A stretch of DNA of 44,289 nucleotides from Ignavibacteriales bacterium (GTDB lineage Bacteria; Bacteroidota; Ignavibacteria; UBA10030), in assembly GCA_016193365.1 (NCBI GenBank), contig JACPSI010000038.1, positions 1 to 44,289 of the forward strand, in the 5' to 3' direction. Of this stretch, positions 522 to 9,499 are shown piece after piece. Numbering within the stretch: position 1 is the stretch's first letter; every line of letters starts with the position of its first letter. Both the position numbers and the translations under genes were made by a program. A model generated the notes under the pieces. The model was not told the origin of the DNA and did not search any database. It saw only the letters and a list, made by a program, of their open reading frames with translations.

Positions 522-606
522 GTCATTCCGAGCAAGGGCGTGATCCAAATTCTTGTTTTTTGCAAGAACTTCCGTACCATGTATTATTCACTTCCCGAAA
601 GGTACC

Positions 607-3600
607 ATGCCCCCGTTACGATTTCTTTATGTGTTTTATAAGCGCGTTTTGAGCCTTGTTGTGCTCACGTTGTTTGCGTCCACCGCCCATGCAATCCCTC
701 CGGATACCCTGAACGGATCAAACGCCTACGGCGCGTTTTTCATTGTCAGAACAGATACTTCGTTCTCGGGCACTGTCTGCACGGGACAGGTGACAGTCGA
801 TGGCACTTATGACGCCGACTCGGTGTATCTCACCCGCATCCAATTGGATTCATCGGATTTTCGTACTCATATCTCTTACCTGCCCGGCGACACCCTGTGG
901 GGCAATGCCGTCCTGCTCATTTCTTCTTTTTGCAAAAGCCTGATCGATATCGACCTTGCGCTCGCTCAAAAAGGAATCCAGTTCCCGTCAGGACTTCTTT
1001 CGCTGTTCCAACACTCCGGTACTGGAACGTCTGCTCCCATTTGTTGGCCGCCCGTTCCGCCTGAAATTCTTAACGTTCAATTCTATTACGGCTCACTCAA
1101 CGGATCACTTGTTGTCGAAACCGGCTGCATGGCGATCCTCGCCGGCGCGATCACGGATTTCACGACAACACTCGTGGAAGACGGGGGCATTGTCTTCTCC
1201 GCTACACCTCCGAACCCGCTGGTCCCGGCGCTGAAGAGCAGCGAGGTTCTCGTCTCCGGCTCCGTGTATTTGGCTGGCTCGGTCGACGCGGATTCAGTCT
1301 ATCTCGACGGCTCGTTCTTGGGTGCGACACTCCAGGCGAGCTCACTGCAGACGAAAACACTCGAACTTTTCGACGGAGAAGCGAGCTTTACAGAAGCCGT
1401 CAACGCAAACAAAGTTGGCTTCCTCGGCAGCACCGGCCGAATCAACCTTTCGGGTAACTCGAGCCTCGGAGCTGGTTCGCTCGAAACTCCGAAACTCACG
1501 TCAAGCGGGTCTTCCATGAGCGTTAACGGGCTCCTCACGACAGATCACTTGTCTCTCTTCGGAAGCAACCTGACTGCAGGAAACCTGAGCGTTCCGTTGG
1601 TCTACCTTACCGGTAGCACCGCTTCTGTCATCAACACAACGATGCTCGACTCGCTGAGCCTAAACAATTCAACTTTTTCTGGGGGTCTCTCGATGACGGC
1701 AAAGAAGGTCTCCGGAAGTAATTCGGAGCTCAACGGGACTCTAATACAGGTCAAACAGTCCCCGACCCTCATCGACCTCAATTCATCGCAGATCAACGCC
1801 GGTACGCTGGACGCAGACTTCATGTACCTCGACACGTGTTCGACCAGTTTTGGGACTCTCGTTACCATGCAAACGATTGCGAACAATTCATCCTTTGATG
1901 GAGGGCTTCTCAACGCAAGGACCGGCCGTTCGCTCTTTTATCTCAACAACGGAATCGTTCAGTCTTCTCATATCAACGCCGGGACTTACCACGTCAGGAA
2001 CGTCACAACAATCACACCTTTCATGGAAGGGGACACTTTGCTCACATGGGGCGGGTCGGTCTACGACGCCGCAGAGGATTCCGTCAGGATTCATTTTCTG
2101 CACAGGAGCTTTATTGATAGCACGCTTGTGAAGTCAGACGTTATCTACGCTTCTCTTGCACAAGCAGAGGTGACGCAAGGGTCGCGGTTTGAATCCGACC
2201 GTCGCGGCGATGGTCCCCGCCAGGAGGAAATTTCGTTCCCGGGCGAAATGAATCACAAGCCAACGGGGGCAAGCTACGGAGGTTACGGAGGCACGAACGG
2301 AAATCTGAATGTCAACGCATTCATTCCCGCCGATGACCCGGTAGGCGTGCCGAATTTTGCGCCCGAAGATCTCAGAAAAGGTCTTGGCGGCTTCGGATGG
2401 ACTTCTGTTCAACATTCCGAAGGAGGCGTTGGAGGGGGAAGAATTCGAATCGACGCGTCGAGCCTGGTGTGGAACGGATTTGCATCAGTAAATGGCGGCA
2501 ATGCGGAGCGCCCCATCCCCCTTGGTTATAACGGAGGCGGGGGAGGCGGCGGAGGCACCGGAGGCACAATCTACGTGGACGTTTCAGGCGCATTTTCCGG
2601 AAGCGGACGAATCGAGTCGAACGGGGGTAACGGAGCTTATTCATTCGGCGGAGATCTTTCGTTCCAAACGGGTAGTGGAGGGAGTGGAGGAAGGATCCGC
2701 ATCAATTACGGCGCACTCGGCGTCTGGAATGGCATGGTGAAAGCCTTGGGTGGAGTTGGAGGGACGTTCGACACAGCTTCGATCTCTTACTATCCGGGAT
2801 TTGTTACTCCATGGATTGACAGTCTCAATAACGGAGGTCCGGGCACGATTTACTGGAAACAGAACGGTGGAAGCGGAAGAATTCTTATAGACGGCGAGGG
2901 CGGTCCGGGAGGAGTTGGCAGGATTGACGGCAGCTATCCGCAGGACACACTTGAGGTTCGGGGAGCGTTGGCAGTGACAAACGGACTTCAGCTGAGAGGA
3001 CTCAAGCTTACCGACGGCGGAATCTTGCGCGCTGATAATCCCCGCGTACGTCTTCGTTGGCCCGCTCCGGTTTTGTACGGAATTTCCCCGCTGTTTGACA
3101 ATCCCGGCTTGTACAACTCTTCTCAGACAGTCTATCCGGTTTGGGTTTGGCAGGATTCGCTCAGTGAGCGTCTCACGATCGAAACAATGAACGACGTTTT
3201 CATCGATGCCTCAAGCCGTCTGGATGTGAGCGGGCAGGGAGGATACAGTCAAACAGACGCCGACTTTTCGTCAGGAGGGTGGGGCAATCGTGCGGGCGGA
3301 TCGCACGGCGGCTACGGCGGATGGGGAAGATGGGGCAGCGAGCAGCAAATGGGAAAACCGAACGCTGTCAAAGGCAATCCTTTGCAGCCGGAAGAGGTTG
3401 GCGAGGGAGGATATGGCGTGCGGAAATACTCTAACACTCCGCATAACGTCGCCATCCTTGGAGGCATGGGAGGAGGCGCTCTTCGACTTATGGCAGGAGG
3501 AACCGTTCGTGTCGACGGTCTCATTGTGTCGAACGGCGGACGCGGGAACGAAGATACACCAAATGCGGATGGCCAGGGAACCGGAGGAGGTTCAGGAGGA

Positions 3601-5424
3601 AGCGTTTGGATCACCGCATCATCGCTCGAAGGATCAGGGATGATCAGCGCGTCCGGCGGAGACGGTTCGTTTGATTCGTATTATCAGTTGTGCGGCGGCG
3701 GCGGCGGCGGAGGAAGAATCAGAATCGATTATGCATCCAAAGGGTCGTGGTCGGGAGATGTACGCACGTTTGGCGGCCGTGGCGGCCAGCAGGATACATC
3801 CCATCACGGAATCATTCCGTGGACCAACCCCCGCGTGCATGGTGGAGCCGGCACAATCTATTGGAACGAATCTTCAGCCCCGACTCTTGAGGTCCGTAAC
3901 TTTGCCCCCGATTCGGGAGGATCAGCCCTTTCAGGAGCGTTTTCAAACATCACTTTGCTTGTGCATAATGCCCTTCTTGCTACGGACGGGCTTGCTGTCG
4001 GAGCGCTCAGGTTGGAAAATCAGGCAGTCCTCACGGCAGATGACAATCGCAACACCCTGTATTCGTTCCCCGGTTTTTTCAGCTCGCCAACGCGCTTTCC
4101 ATTCTGGTCTCAAAAAACGCCCAAGTTCATTGCTCTGGATATAAAAGGCAATGCCCTCATTGATGCAACGAGCAGAATCGACGTCTCCGGTCTCGGCGGT
4201 TTCAGCAGGGTCGATGAGAATACGCTCAGCGGAGCGGCGCTGAATCCGGCGGGTGGTTCTTATGGCGGCGTTGGCGGAGGAGGACGGGTCGCGTCACTCT
4301 TCGGTGTTGCTTCACCCGTGTTTGGCGATTCTCTTCGTCCACTGTCGGCCGGACTCGGAGGGTTTGGTGACGACGCTTTGCCCGGGAGCGGAATATTCTT
4401 CTACCAGTGCAGGTCTTCGGGTTCCGGGGGAGCAGCTCTGAGAATGTCCGTCGGAGGAACGCTCGATCTTCATGGTATCATCCGTTCGAACGGTTTTTCC
4501 GGCACCGCTCTGTTCGTGTGCAATCCGGACAACAACCACACTCCCACCGGTGGTGCAGGTGGAAGTATTTTTCTCGCTGCCGGTCAACTCACTGGAGCGG
4601 GATTGCTTGATGCTTCAGGCGGCGATGGAGTTTTCAATTCGGACCGATGGGGCGGTGGAGGCGGAGGTGGGAGGATTGCTGTTTACGGAACGCTCGCCTC
4701 GTTTTCCGGCACGATGAGAGCGAATGGGGGTCTTGGAGGAGCGGGTGGCGGAGTTGATTCCCTCGTTTACAAAGGCGGCCCGGGCACGATCGTCACGGGT
4801 TCAGTTCCGTCGGATGCAGCCATTCCGTTCACTGTCGTTGGCACTTCGGTGGCGGATGGCGACACGGGAGTTTCACGCACGGAGCCTCTCTTCATTGTCT
4901 TCAATAAACCGGCAAGAATCTCATCTCTTCAGATGAGCAGCACACCCGATCCGGGTGGATTGACCATGAGAGGCAATTTTGCGGGAGATTCGGTCTGGCT
5001 TGACCATTCTGAGTTAGCCGAACAAACAACTTACACGGTCAGACTTGTTCAGCTCTTGAGCATGTTCGGCGACACGCTTGCCGCCAATTCACCACGTCAG
5101 TGGACGTTTTCTACGGGGGAAGTAATCACCAAGGTTGGGGGAGAGGAACTTGTCCCTCTTGAGTTTGTCTTGTATCAGAATTACCCCAATCCCTTCAACC
5201 CTCTCACCATCGTTGACTTCACCATGGAGAAAGAGGATCGCGTGAGCTTGCGTATTTACAATATACTCGGCGAACTGATCACCACACTTGTCGACGAATC
5301 CCGGCTGCCGGGAAAAGTATATCACGTTACCTTCGATGGCACTCGACTGCCGTCTGGATTGTATTTTGCCAGACTGGAATCGGGCGGGAAACAATTAGTC
5401 AGAAAAATGTTGCTCGTGAAGTGA
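607..5424 (+). CDS. Large secreted glycine-rich protein with type IX secretion sorting domain
   Basis: This is a 1605-residue exported protein of unknown function. The ATG at 607 is preferred over the TTG at 553 because it directly begins a signal peptide (MPPLRFLYVF, then a hydrophobic stretch ending in TAHA) and has AAAGG just upstream. Residues about 40-480 are rich in short DSVYL/GSL-type strands, suggesting a beta-solenoid. Three glycine-rich modules follow at roughly 550-760, 865-1095 and 1182-1400; each contains a G(G)SYGGYGG-like start, a run of 6-8 glycines and a GGRIRI strand, and the last two open with IDA(S/T)SR(L/I)DVSG. About 1405-1505 resembles a bacterial Ig-like domain (Big_5 type). 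Residues 1518-1605 form a type A sorting domain with YQNYPNPFNP and a terminal KMLLVK, implying transport through the type IX system and attachment or release at the surface. Adhesion or matrix function is only a guess. Confidence 0.88.
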   Translation: MPPLRFLYVFYKRVLSLVVLTLFASTAHAIPPDTLNGSNAYGAFFIVRTDTSFSGTVCTGQVTVDGTYDADSVYLTRIQLDSSDFRTHISYLPGDTLWGNAVLLISSFCKSLIDIDLALAQKGIQFPSGLLSLFQHSGTGTSAPICWPPVPPEILNVQFYYGSLNGSLVVETGCMAILAGAITDFTTTLVEDGGIVFSATPPNPLVPALKSSEVLVSGSVYLAGSVDADSVYLDGSFLGATLQASSLQTKTLELFDGEASFTEAVNANKVGFLGSTGRINLSGNSSLGAGSLETPKLTSSGSSMSVNGLLTTDHLSLFGSNLTAGNLSVPLVYLTGSTASVINTTMLDSLSLNNSTFSGGLSMTAKKVSGSNSELNGTLIQVKQSPTLIDLNSSQINAGTLDADFMYLDTCSTSFGTLVTMQTIANNSSFDGGLLNARTGRSLFYLNNGIVQSSHINAGTYHVRNVTTITPFMEGDTLLTWGGSVYDAAEDSVRIHFLHRSFIDSTLVKSDVIYASLAQAEVTQGSRFESDRRGDGPRQEEISFPGEMNHKPTGASYGGYGGTNGNLNVNAFIPADDPVGVPNFAPEDLRKGLGGFGWTSVQHSEGGVGGGRIRIDASSLVWNGFASVNGGNAERPIPLGYNGGGGGGGGTGGTIYVDVSGAFSGSGRIESNGGNGAYSFGGDLSFQTGSGGSGGRIRINYGALGVWNGMVKALGGVGGTFDTASISYYPGFVTPWIDSLNNGGPGTIYWKQNGGSGRILIDGEGGPGGVGRIDGSYPQDTLEVRGALAVTNGLQLRGLKLTDGGILRADNPRVRLRWPAPVLYGISPLFDNPGLYNSSQTVYPVWVWQDSLSERLTIETMNDVFIDASSRLDVSGQGGYSQTDADFSSGGWGNRAGGSHGGYGGWGRWGSEQQMGKPNAVKGNPLQPEEVGEGGYGVRKYSNTPHNVAILGGMGGGALRLMAGGTVRVDGLIVSNGGRGNEDTPNADGQGTGGGSGGSVWITASSLEGSGMISASGGDGSFDSYYQLCGGGGGGGRIRIDYASKGSWSGDVRTFGGRGGQQDTSHHGIIPWTNPRVHGGAGTIYWNESSAPTLEVRNFAPDSGGSALSGAFSNITLLVHNALLATDGLAVGALRLENQAVLTADDNRNTLYSFPGFFSSPTRFPFWSQKTPKFIALDIKGNALIDATSRIDVSGLGGFSRVDENTLSGAALNPAGGSYGGVGGGGRVASLFGVASPVFGDSLRPLSAGLGGFGDDALPGSGIFFYQCRSSGSGGAALRMSVGGTLDLHGIIRSNGFSGTALFVCNPDNNHTPTGGAGGSIFLAAGQLTGAGLLDASGGDGVFNSDRWGGGGGGGRIAVYGTLASFSGTMRANGGLGGAGGGVDSLVYKGGPGTIVTGSVPSDAAIPFTVVGTSVADGDTGVSRTEPLFIVFNKPARISSLQMSSTPDPGGLTMRGNFAGDSVWLDHSELAEQTTYTVRLVQLLSMFGDTLAANSPRQWTFSTGEVITKVGGEELVPLEFVLYQNYPNPFNPLTIVDFTMEKEDRVSLRIYNILGELITTLVDESRLPGKVYHVTFDGTRLPSGLYFARLESGGKQLVRKMLLVK

Positions 5425-6082: not shown

Positions 6083-7726
6083 CTATTTCTTGAACTCTCT
6101 TAGGATCTTGTCGATCTGTTCTTCGGTGATCCCGGTTCCGTACGCGACCGTTTTTTTTGGCTCTGCGGAGGTCGGTTTTGCTTCAGCAACGACAGGTTTT
6201 CTTTCGGGAGTCGTATGGGTCGGCACATTGCTTGCCTTAAGACGAATTCGTTCGTCGATCTCGTCAAGCCAGGATTTACCCGTGGGCGCATGTCCGACGT
6301 TATACACCGAAGATTTCGAATAATCCCTTTCTTTTACAGGGATGGTTTTTTCGATGAATTGTTCCGGCGGGTTGATCGGCCTGGTTTCGAAAGCAAGCCG
6401 CTTGATGTTGATCAGATGCTTGGCGGAAACGTTTTCAGAAATAATCGATCCGCCGAATGTCCCTGGACCCAGTGTCATTGAAGGCAAGAGTTCATTCGTG
6501 TAACCGACAGCGCCAAGTGCGGCTTGTGTATTGACAAGAACGCGGAATGCCGGCTTCTCGAGTCCAAATTTCAAGACGATTTCCGGGTCCGTGCAATGGA
6601 TGACCATCGTGTGTCCGATACCGCCGAATTCCAGCATTTCAATACATCGCTCACAGCCCTCGCGATATCCATTTACGGTGAACATCGAAAGCACCGGTGA
6701 GAGTTTTTCGCGGGAGAGCGGATATTCCCGCCCCACAGCTGGCAGCTCGGCAATGAGGCAGGGCGTATCGCTGGGAACGTCGAATCCAGCTTTCTGCGCG
6801 ATAAACACAGGCGGCTTGCCGACGATATTTGGATTAATAGCTCCCCGCGGGTCGAACATTGTCCGGCTGAGGCGATCTTTCTCTTCGGGTGAACAGAAAT
6901 ACGCTCCGCGTTTCTTGAATTCTTCAACGACCATTCTCTTAATGGGCTCATCCACGATAACGCCGGATTCCGTCGAGCACAAAACTCCCCAGTCGAACAT
7001 TTTTCCAGAAACAATGTCGGCCACTGCTTTTTTGACGTTTGCAGTGCGCTCAATGAATGCGGGAACATTTCCGGACCCGACACCGTAAGCCGGCTTCCCC
7101 GAGCTGTACGCGGCGCGAACCATGGGATTTGAACCAGTGGCAAGAATGACAGCAGTTTTCTTGTGCTTCATCAACTCGTTTGTGCCCTCAATGGAGGGGA
7201 CGGACATGCAGGCGATGAGTCCCGATGGAGCGCCGGCGCTCTCCGCAGCTTGAGCGATGATCTTTGTTGACTCCAGGGTCGAGTTGACAGCGCGGGGATG
7301 TGGGCTTCCCACAAATCCATTGCGTCCTTTGACGGATATGATAGCCTTGAACATCACCGTGGACGTGGGGTTTGTCGAGGGTATCAACGCTGCAACAACG
7401 CCCATCGGCTCGGCGATCTCAATAATCTTCTTCTCTTTATCCTCATGAATGACGCCGACAGTTTTGAGATCTTTGATGGACTCCCAGACACGCTTGGTCG
7501 CGAACTCGTTCTTCTTTTTCTTGTCTGCGGCTTTACCGAATCCCGTCTCCTCGTGGGCCATCTTGCCAAGTTTTTCCGCGGCCCCAAAGCCTGCGTCAAC
7601 CATTGCCTTGACAATGTTGTCCACCTGTTCCTGAGTATATTTCCGGAACGCAAGCTGGGCATCCTTGGCTTTGGTCACCAGGTCGCGGGCTTCTTGAATG
7701 GATTGGAGGTCTTTATCGGCTGGCAT
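6083..7726 (-). CDS. CoA-acylating aldehyde dehydrogenase with encapsulation-peptide-like C-terminus
   Basis: The 547-residue protein belongs to the acetaldehyde/propionaldehyde dehydrogenase (acylating) group related to EutE, PduP and the AdhE N-terminal domain, which convert an aldehyde, CoA and NAD+ to acyl-CoA. The nucleophile Cys250 sits in DWGVLCSTES, and GVGSGNVPAFIE and TLGPGTFGGSI are typical of this group. The core ends near residue 490. A Pro/Ala/Lys-rich linker follows, then a predicted amphipathic helix (GITEEQIDKILREFKK, residues 532-547). That layout is the one used by cargo enzymes of bacterial microcompartments for shell binding. No shell protein is present in the window, so encapsulation is an inference. 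It lies 16 bases downstream of the retropepsin-like gene. Start ATG at 7724-7726; no clear Shine-Dalgarno. Confidence 0.9.
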   Translation of the reverse strand: MPADKDLQSIQEARDLVTKAKDAQLAFRKYTQEQVDNIVKAMVDAGFGAAEKLGKMAHEETGFGKAADKKKKNEFATKRVWESIKDLKTVGVIHEDKEKKIIEIAEPMGVVAALIPSTNPTSTVMFKAIISVKGRNGFVGSPHPRAVNSTLESTKIIAQAAESAGAPSGLIACMSVPSIEGTNELMKHKKTAVILATGSNPMVRAAYSSGKPAYGVGSGNVPAFIERTANVKKAVADIVSGKMFDWGVLCSTESGVIVDEPIKRMVVEEFKKRGAYFCSPEEKDRLSRTMFDPRGAINPNIVGKPPVFIAQKAGFDVPSDTPCLIAELPAVGREYPLSREKLSPVLSMFTVNGYREGCERCIEMLEFGGIGHTMVIHCTDPEIVLKFGLEKPAFRVLVNTQAALGAVGYTNELLPSMTLGPGTFGGSIISENVSAKHLINIKRLAFETRPINPPEQFIEKTIPVKERDYSKSSVYNVGHAPTGKSWLDEIDERIRLKASNVPTHTTPERKPVVAEAKPTSAEPKKTVAYGTGITEEQIDKILREFKK

Positions 7727-7742: not shown

Positions 7743-8147
7743 TTACGACTTCCTAACTTTGAGAGCCATTCTCAGAGCGTTTTTTCGTATGAGAATATCT
7801 TTTTGCCTTGGATTGATTTGAATATCATAAATCTGCACGAAATCGTGTCCAAGGAGAATATCGTAATCAGGGTCGAGTATTTCATCCGGCAGGACATAAC
7901 AAAGATGTGGCACCCAAATACCCAAGAGTCGAATCTCGATGCTTGCCATGAACCCGGCTTTGAAGTGACCGTTGCCGAGTCCGTGAAACGTTTTTGGATC
8001 GGGGAGTTTTGCTAATCCTCTCATACCGTTCGTTGCTGATTGCTTGATGAAAGTTCTCGGTGAGCCGGTATCGAAATAGAACTTCAGCAATCGCGGCTTT
8101 TCCGCACTCGCAGATCGCACCGGAAATGATTTGATGATATCTCCCAT
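7743..8147 (-). CDS. Retropepsin-like aspartic protease domain protein
   Basis: A 134-residue protein with the two landmarks of the single-domain (retroviral-type) aspartic protease fold: FDTGSP at residues 25-30, holding the catalytic Asp26, and a later hydrophobic-Gly segment DILLGHDFVQIYDI. Such proteins work as homodimers. Substrate is unknown. The frame extends upstream to a GTG at 8250-8252, but that extension runs through a repeated palindromic element (8194-8235), so the ATG at 8145-8147 is preferred; neither start has a convincing Shine-Dalgarno. It is the first gene of a probable minus-strand unit with the aldehyde dehydrogenase and is divergent from the DUF3095-like gene. Confidence 0.65.
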   Translation of the reverse strand: MGDIIKSFPVRSASAEKPRLLKFYFDTGSPRTFIKQSATNGMRGLAKLPDPKTFHGLGNGHFKAGFMASIEIRLLGIWVPHLCYVLPDEILDPDYDILLGHDFVQIYDIQINPRQKDILIRKNALRMALKVRKS

Positions 8148-8193
8148 GAAAAGAAGGTAAATCAAATTCGGGTGACAATCAATTTCCGTGACA

Positions 8194-8235
8194 TTGTCAA
8201 GGTTCTCTCTGCTATTCCATGACCTTAACAAGGTT
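8194..8235. repeat. 42-bp REP-like element, copy A
   Basis: TTGTCAAGGTTCTCT, a variable 12-base middle, then GACCTTAACAAGGTT with ACCTT/AAGGT arms. The same arrangement with identical spacing occurs at 11409-11450; I count 32 of 42 identical bases. It lies in the divergent gap 8148-8296, where no other clear signal was found. Confidence 0.7.
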
Positions 8236-8296
8236 ACCAGGTGTCGTTGCACCTTGTTTCTTTTATGATGCTCATCTACATTGCACCTGATTTCTC

Positions 8297-9499
8297 ATGC
8301 CTATCAACTCCCGAACAAACTCCGAGTCATTTTATCTCAACCTGCCCGTCACGGAGAATTTCCTTGACATCTCCAACCCTGCCATCTACACAAAATTGCC
8401 GGATGACTGGCATGTTGTCGCAACGGACCTGAAGGACTCCACCACGGCGATTCAGAAAGGGATGTACAAAGAAGTCAACCTGATGGGCGCCTCATCGATT
8501 ATGGCGATGCTGAACTTGACCAAGTCTTTTTCACTGCCATTTGTCTTCGGCGGAGACGGTGCAACCATCTGTATTCCGAACGCTTTCGTCGAAAAAGCAC
8601 GGAAAGCTCTGACTGCAACACGACAAATGGCGAGGAAGGTGTATGGCTTTGACTTCCGCGTCGGTATTGTACCCATCACGGATATTCGCCGCGCTGGGTT
8701 CGATGTCCTCGTCGCCCGCTACCGCGTTTCGGAGAATTTTGTCCAGGCCGTGTTCACCGGATGGGGACTCCAGTATGCAGAGGAAAGCATCAAAGACCCC
8801 AAACTGAGTGGAGACTACAACCTCGATTCAAATGACGATGACGCCGGGGCCGATTATTCCGGGCTCGAATGCCGGTGGAAGAATGTCCCGAGCGAACACG
8901 GGGAAATCGTCTCGCTTATCGTGCAGGCAACGGTGGCAAACCCCGAAGAGCGAAACAAGATTTACAGAGAGGTCATAGCCAAGGTCAGCGAGGTTTACGG
9001 CTCCGACACCATGTGCCACCCTGTGAACAAGAGCCTTTTGAGGAGCGCATTTAACGAGAGAAAACTTTCCGGCGAATCAAACATACGGACTTTTGGAAAA
9101 GGAAGCGTCGCCCGGGTTTTATACTGGTTTTACATACGATTCAAGGTCGTCCTTGGGGCCGTCTTGATGAAGACAGGTTATAAATCGAGGAATATCGACT
9201 GGGGCACATACAAGTCCCAACTCGTCGCAAACACCGACTATAGAAAATTCGACGATAAATTGCGTCAGACGCTGTCCGGCACGCCGGAACAGCGGGCAAA
9301 ACTCGAAACTTACCTCGAAGGTCGATTCCGAAAGAACGAACTGGTCTATGGAACTCATTTTGCACCAACCGCGCTCATCACGTGCCTCATCTTCAGTTAT
9401 AGCGGCGCTCACATTCATCTTGTCGACTCCGACAACGGCGGGTATGCAACCGCCGCGGCCCAATTGAAGGAACGCCTCAGAGCAAGGAAATCGGATTGA
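8297..9499 (+). CDS. DUF3095-like protein, possible nucleotide-cyclase-like fold
   Basis: A 400-residue soluble protein that resembles the DUF3095 family by length and motifs. Near the N-terminus it reads WHVVATDLKDST and about 55 residues later FVFGGDGATICIP. The pairing of a D-L-x-D-S-T strand with a GGDGA hairpin recalls the metal-binding strand and the hairpin of class III nucleotide cyclases and GGDEF domains; this is my inference and no product is claimed. The rest is without recognised motifs. The ATG at 8297 precedes a hydrophilic N-terminus with no signal peptide. The pseudouridine synthase gene follows at once, so the two are probably cotranscribed. Confidence 0.7.
   Translation: MPINSRTNSESFYLNLPVTENFLDISNPAIYTKLPDDWHVVATDLKDSTTAIQKGMYKEVNLMGASSIMAMLNLTKSFSLPFVFGGDGATICIPNAFVEKARKALTATRQMARKVYGFDFRVGIVPITDIRRAGFDVLVARYRVSENFVQAVFTGWGLQYAEESIKDPKLSGDYNLDSNDDDAGADYSGLECRWKNVPSEHGEIVSLIVQATVANPEERNKIYREVIAKVSEVYGSDTMCHPVNKSLLRSAFNERKLSGESNIRTFGKGSVARVLYWFYIRFKVVLGAVLMKTGYKSRNIDWGTYKSQLVANTDYRKFDDKLRQTLSGTPEQRAKLETYLEGRFRKNELVYGTHFAPTALITCLIFSYSGAHIHLVDSDNGGYATAAAQLKERLRARKSD

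Follow-up and report, generated by a model that had tools for sequence, protein, structure and literature searches.

FRAG microcompartments, reported from Ignavibacteriae, have shell genes at several places, three BMC-P genes and no main locus (PMC8217296). Their genes are mostly remote from those of known enzymes, and their function was expected to emerge from future environmental correlation (PMC8217296). None of the papers listed in a literature search on FRAG function, Ignavibacteria and SPU deals with the cargo of FRAG shells. Scattered BMC-P genes have been reported for Melioribacter roseus, a cultured member of the class (PMC4207490). SPU microcompartments are encoded in a compact locus with a DeoC aldolase, RpiB and an acetaldehyde-type aldehyde dehydrogenase (AldDH), with terminal tags (PMC4207490, PMC8217296). 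In some HO microcompartments, a DeoC aldolase with an N-terminal extension resembling an encapsulation peptide (EP-like) is encoded at a separate place, and there is a BMC-P triplet (PMC8217296).

We analysed a window of 44,289 nucleotides of an Ignavibacteriales genome (contig C16), which encodes a CoA-acylating AldDH predicted to be a microcompartment cargo. Judging from sequence, we consider it very probable that the tail of this enzyme, as a C-terminal encapsulation peptide, targets it to a microcompartment that is encoded at dispersed chromosomal sites and would take deoxyribose-5-phosphate to acetyl-CoA. The observations that carry this reading are the tail, the shell genes of the genome, the marked partner enzymes, the co-occurrence of these parts across the class, the compact SPU loci of relatives and one joint loss.

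The genome (G000) resembles FRAG in that its shell genes are found at several separate locations (contigs C79, C87 and C23), include a BMC-P triplet and, DeoB apart, are remote from enzyme genes. It differs from FRAG as described in that a tagged AldDH, a tagged DERA and an RpiB with a BMC-type domain can be assigned, and in that DeoB is encoded beside the BMC-P pair. With SPU it shares homologous AldDH, DERA, BMC-H and BMC-P. A DeoC-type aldolase (pfam01791) with an EP-like N-terminus and an RpiB-type isomerase (pfam02502), in an extended copy, are both present, albeit at other loci (G000:C54 and G000:C137, respectively). In contrast to SPU, no single main locus unites shells and enzymes, PduL was not found when sought in this genome, and the AldDHs of the class are longer, with an extra helix in mid-tail. 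As there is no compact locus, we did not file the system as an SPU locus. The separately placed DeoC aldolase with its EP-like N-terminal extension and the BMC-P triplet are reminiscent of HO, but HO has a main locus and BMC-T, whereas here all parts are dispersed and the BMC-H proteins are just two, both single-domain. The AldDH belongs to the same enzyme family as the PduP/EutE cargo AldDHs and shares with them a helical, here predicted, encapsulation peptide on a flexible linker. Unlike the N-terminal tag of PduP, that of the AldDH is C-terminal, ending a 94-residue extension beyond the core. The predicted microcompartment would operate in the manner of SPU with a FRAG-like gene organisation, and its novelty is the joining of both.

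The AldDH gene and the parts of its product are the following:

6083..7726, minus strand: CoA-acylating aldehyde dehydrogenase (EutE/PduP type), 547 aa; TIGR02518 with 615 bits over residues 4-450, PF00171, invariant Cys250
6368..7726, minus strand: catalytic core, residues 1-453, delimited by conservation and invariant columns
6977-6979, minus strand: codon of Cys250
6275..6367, minus strand: variable linker 1, residues 454-484; low conservation, pLDDT <50 at 452-484
6227..6274, minus strand: conserved mid-tail helix SWLDEIDERIRLKASN, residues 485-500; conservation, AlphaFold2 helix at 486-498
6131..6226, minus strand: variable Pro/Ala/Lys linker 2, residues 501-532; variable and gapped, pLDDT <50 at 498-530
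6086..6130, minus strand: predicted C-terminal encapsulation peptide ITEEQIDKILREFKK, residues 533-547; conserved amphipathic helix, AlphaFold2 helix at 535-546

In the homologue alignment, the mean frequency of the commonest residue is 0.81 over residues 1-450. The catalytic Cys250, as expected of an acylating AldDH, is invariant in 27 aligned sequences, and the closest solved structures are acetylating aldehyde dehydrogenases. The score against the TIGR02518 model (acetaldehyde dehydrogenase, acetylating), 615.4 bits, is under the cut-off of 620.1, as are those of the AldDHs of the compact loci L047 and L168 (568.6 and 559.5, respectively). Elsewhere in the window, positions 553-5424 encode a protein of 1623 aa with glycine-rich repeats, in which PF18962, a secretion-system C-terminal sorting domain, and PF13205 (Big_5) are found. 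The segment adjoining the AldDH gene (7743-9499) codes for a small protein weakly resembling retropepsin-type aspartyl proteases (PF13975, E 0.006) and, on the opposite strand, a DUF3095 protein.

The sequence-only reading had placed a Pro/Ala/Lys linker and an amphipathic C-terminal helix at 6083-6230, and our analysis confirmed both the features and their position: this interval corresponds to about residues 500-547 plus the stop codon, and the protein ends in ...KPVVAEAKPTSAEPKKTVAYGTGITEEQIDKILREFKK. Encapsulation peptides are amphipathic helices of ~15-20 residues at the extreme terminus, joined to the enzyme by a poorly conserved, flexible linker. Residues 533-547 form such a helix, and the two variable linkers between it and the core combine low conservation with pLDDT values <50. 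The hydrophobic moment of the terminal helix is 0.73 over 14 residues. Shuffled versions of the helix attain this value in 0.5% of cases, as do 2.9% of the 207 other C-termini compared; the helix is thus more than chance. It is present, ungapped, in all 44 unique homologues, in which the commonest-residue frequency of the linkers is 0.34-0.48, depending on the region. Linker 2 closes with a conserved G-x-G, and the consensus of the terminal block in the homologue tails is G-x-G-I-[ST]-E-E-x-[IV]-x-[KR]-I-[IL]-x-E-F, with frequencies in the 44 homologues of 0.98 for G530, 0.93 for G532, 0.82 for I533, 0.84 for I541 and 0.98 for F545. AlphaFold2 predicted helices at 486-498 and 535-546, the second with a pLDDT of about 70, and assigned to 452-484 and 498-530 the very low confidence typical of disordered stretches. 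Using a profile of the tail, we found no further cargo in the genome, and hence the tail is not common letter for letter to other proteins.

The mid-tail helix is conserved as well (S485 0.88, I490 1.00, R493 0.95, A498 and N500 0.98), with a hydrophobic moment of just 0.35. It may be a second binding element. The extension in which SWLDEIDERIRLKASN sits is absent from the shorter AldDHs of compact SPU loci.

The sequence-only reading had also noted that no shell genes are nearby. This is correct locally: none is near the AldDH gene on its contig, and none was found in the stretches fetched around each AldDH locus of the class, up to 6 kb per side. It does not hold for the genome as a whole (3.16 Mb, 167 contigs, 97% complete), in which the proposed search for both shell types yielded two adjacent BMC-H genes on C79 and three BMC-P genes (PF03319), an adjacent pair on C87 and a single one on C23. 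BMC-H1 scores above the EutM cut-off and has the motifs AMVKAA and AATDAGAAAA. AMVKxA and AATDAGAAAA line the groove between BMC-H hexamers, where helix binding is experimentally supported for PduL/PduA (PMC11157265). With BMC-H, BMC-P and these groove motifs, shell proteins that should be able to receive the tail are encoded in the same genome. The shells of the genome, the conservation of the tail in all cases where this enzyme accompanies dispersed shells, and the relatives encoded beside BMC-H genes support the proposal, already made from the sequence alone, that the tail is a BMC encapsulation peptide. Neither of the two observations that were to speak against the proposal was made, since shell proteins are encoded in the genome and the one homologue found without shells, that of G042, has no tail.

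The second BMC-H (L006:1518-2093, G000:C79) has an acidic linker; its C-terminal block, MTVHELRRFARGIEGMPIYGREISKANKKRLIEELMK, is conserved and present in nearly all paired BMC-H2 homologues that we read. This block has no Pfam match and looks SAP- or Rho-N-like by eye; it could serve in organelle positioning or nucleic-acid binding.

The AldDH, DERA and RpiB genes, the BMC-H pair, the BMC-P pair and the single BMC-P gene are on six contigs. Shell genes are far apart also in the single-contig genomes G113, G180 and G183. The AldDH gene, the BMC-P pair, the BMC-H pair and the DERA gene are located at 2.08, 2.70, 3.09 and 3.75 Mb, respectively, in G180, and at 1.91, 3.52, 2.64 and 3.06 Mb in G183. 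The dispersal is therefore no effect of assembly. In many genomes of family f13, the DERA gene is roughly 8-20 kb from the BMC-H pair. An orphan cargo, a satellite locus and a remnant had been offered as explanations for the isolated AldDH gene. Satellite comes nearest, with the qualification that the genome has no main locus for the microcompartment and every part is a satellite.

A matching aldolase had been suggested as a further test, and it was found in the form of the DERA on C54 (L010:1420-2307; TIGR00126, 282 bits). This protein has about 70 extra N-terminal residues, comprising an encapsulation-like helix, NVDKATILRLIDEVLKETN, with a hydrophobic moment of 0.68, and then a Cys-rich linker, CCKDGICSDNLCLVHNKEGV. 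The extended DERA N-termini that we read start with an amphipathic helix, followed in most by a Cys-rich linker. The conserved Cys-rich motif between helix and barrel (CCKDGICSDNLCVVHNKEGV type) is lost in the shell-less G188, and a metal or redox site is a possible role for it. A second, short DERA paralogue (L011:1420-2154, G000:C3) is devoid of the N-terminal extension and 37% identical to the tagged DERA.

Of the two RpiB genes in the genome, the copy on C137 codes for an extra N-terminal domain with a match (7.9e-6) to the end of TIGR02536, an ethanolamine-utilisation model. Six such extended N-termini were read in all, the domain being shared with five RpiBs from other shell-bearing genomes, and a profile of it matched this RpiB only. 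Rather than a helix of the AldDH-tail type, the extension constitutes a different domain. DeoB (phosphopentomutase) is encoded next to the BMC-P pair, and in two further families, represented by G113 and G180, a DeoB-like gene similarly adjoins BMC-P genes.

We determined the co-occurrence of these parts in 197 genomes of the same class, many of them fragmented and varying in completeness. We took this class to be Ignavibacteria from the closest named homologue (93%), which comes from an Ignavibacteriales MAG. The AldDH is present in 68 (E <= 1e-60), BMC-H in 77 and BMC-P in 73. Sixty-seven genomes have the AldDH and both shell types, one has the AldDH only, six have shells only and 123 have neither (Fisher's test, 2.6e-44); the genomes are related by descent, so that Fisher values overstate independence and contrasts within genera weigh more. 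Such contrasts are found in genus g3, where G033 has shells and AldDH and both G177 and G188 have neither, and in genus g6, with G181 having both and G089 neither. The only AldDH without both shells, that of G042, is a homologue 44% identical that matches only to residue 445 and has no tail. Among the 68 AldDHs, 63 align through to residues 545-547. Those of G013 and G196 are also tailed once their open reading frames are read to the stop, that of G015 is interrupted by the contig end, and that of G085 has a different tail, ending in EIERVVRQVVNEILETKRSS.

The extended DERA follows a similar distribution, being present in 67 genomes with both shells, with the barrel-only form in 61 listed genomes without both. 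Extended DERA without shells was recorded in four cases, G042, G139 (78% complete), G177 and G188; the N-termini of the last two, as read, are not of the tagged form. Conversely, G065, G119 and G170 have a barrel-only DERA despite having shells.

Comparison of G033 with G188 showed a common gene order from DERA to deoB, with ~79-85% DNA identity. In G033, BMC-P genes are located between rpoD and deoB. At the same place in G188 (L224:9804-10101), a BMC-P relic is found within about 300 bases; there is no BMC-P reading frame, and the reading ends in VDTVTVVVVEKLDISK, which resembles the end of BMC-P. Searches of G188 did not find BMC-H, BMC-P or AldDH, and its DERA starts with MSIVNMANKDEIKNIVQSSADRT, having neither the tag helix nor the Cys motif. 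In this one case of joint loss, as far as the sequences tell, the DERA tag disappears together with the shell.

Outside the class, eight AldDH relatives from Chloroflexota, Thermodesulfobacteriota, Spirochaetota and Bacillota have a BMC-H gene within about 0.1-1.6 kb, one of these relatives (L046) being a fragment. The tail comparison that had been proposed with the original reading showed comparable tails on the closest of them. The gene order of L047, namely RpiB, DERA, BMC-P, AldDH and BMC-H, is the published SPU set, and the BMC-H1 of G000 is 77-87% identical to the BMC-H of the out-of-class relatives. Within the class, G085 has a compact locus like L047, with EP-like helices on RpiB, DERA and AldDH. 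In the AldDH tree, the dispersed enzymes form one group (98/96) that branches by genome family, and those of compact loci, including G085, are outside it. This topology is consistent with a single ancient dispersal and vertical inheritance thereafter, without being proof of it.

We infer binding, encapsulation, substrate, catalysis and flux of the AldDH system along the following lines. DeoB would make deoxyribose-5-phosphate, and the tagged DERA would act after it and before the tagged AldDH, which would convert acetaldehyde to acetyl-CoA with NAD+ and CoA. The RpiB with the BMC-type N-terminal domain would isomerise pentose phosphates. The AldDH peptide is expected to bind in the groove between neighbouring BMC-H hexamers. 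This route follows the proposal for SPU (PMC4207490, PMC8217296). Given the dispersed layout, it is tags and co-occurrence, rather than an operon, that argue for a common function.

The aldehyde might have another source, e.g. ethanolamine, with the tail still an encapsulation peptide and DERA and RpiB as secondary guests. The best-scoring NCBIfam model for the AldDH is indeed the ethanolamine-associated TIGR02518, BMC-H1 exceeds the cut-off for EutM, and some HO and SPU microcompartments have been reported with EUT modules attached to them (PMC8217296). Nevertheless, we find this source improbable, as the out-of-class AldDH relatives are encoded in compact SPU loci alongside the same DERA and RpiB, the BMC-P pair has DeoB as its neighbour, and the DERA extension tracks the shells genome by genome. 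Alternatively, the terminal helix could mediate oligomerisation or condensates of a free cytosolic AldDH, with no shell involved. Such a role would leave unexplained that the tailed AldDH is found only with shell genes and that the DERA helix is lost where the shells are lost; we thus hold it to be very unlikely, even though metabolosome encapsulation peptides self-associate as trimers and form condensates (PMC12339742) and the AldDH tail has a second conserved helix. Condensation and encapsulation may also coexist.

Finally, the tail might be a now-neutral remnant of a lost microcompartment, a view that the lack of shell genes near the AldDH gene and the scatter of the genes, which can suggest decay, would favour. 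It is hardly credible: the sequence contradicts it, the shell genes being open in the same genome; throughout a deep clade, the helix is kept, in contrast to the drifting linkers beside it; and where shells have really been lost, the AldDH is absent too. The open shell genes and the conserved helix led us to reject the orphan-cargo reading together with that of a remnant.

A broader and much more tentative proposal is that the FRAG microcompartments of the class are SPU-type deoxyribose organelles, dispersed and tag-addressed, with the BMC-H2 domain providing a tie to DNA or positioning. The dispersed state would then have been inherited across many families, with terminal tags, in place of operon structure, as the only guide to assembly. 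FRAG was described in 2021 as shells without assigned enzymes, and there is now, for those of Ignavibacteria, a candidate cargo list and a proposed pathway that can be tested. The system also represents a microcompartment without operon organisation that is still retained in many families. Where gene neighbourhood cannot help, terminal tags combined with presence or absence alongside shells offer a reusable method for finding cargo.

The six genomes with both shells and no such AldDH are G035, G045, G065, G096, G119 and G170. No such AldDH was found in G035 (79% complete) and G045 (68% complete), yet both have the extended DERA. The other four have neither the AldDH nor the extended DERA and may hold other microcompartment types. 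G170, of the same family, has a compact locus that by eye encodes a different kind of microcompartment (L175, G170:C82:1-12000). It contains a gene for a class II aldolase-like protein with an EP-like C-terminus, one for an AldDH of another kind with an EP-like N-terminus, and PduL-like, PduS-like and acetate-kinase-like genes.
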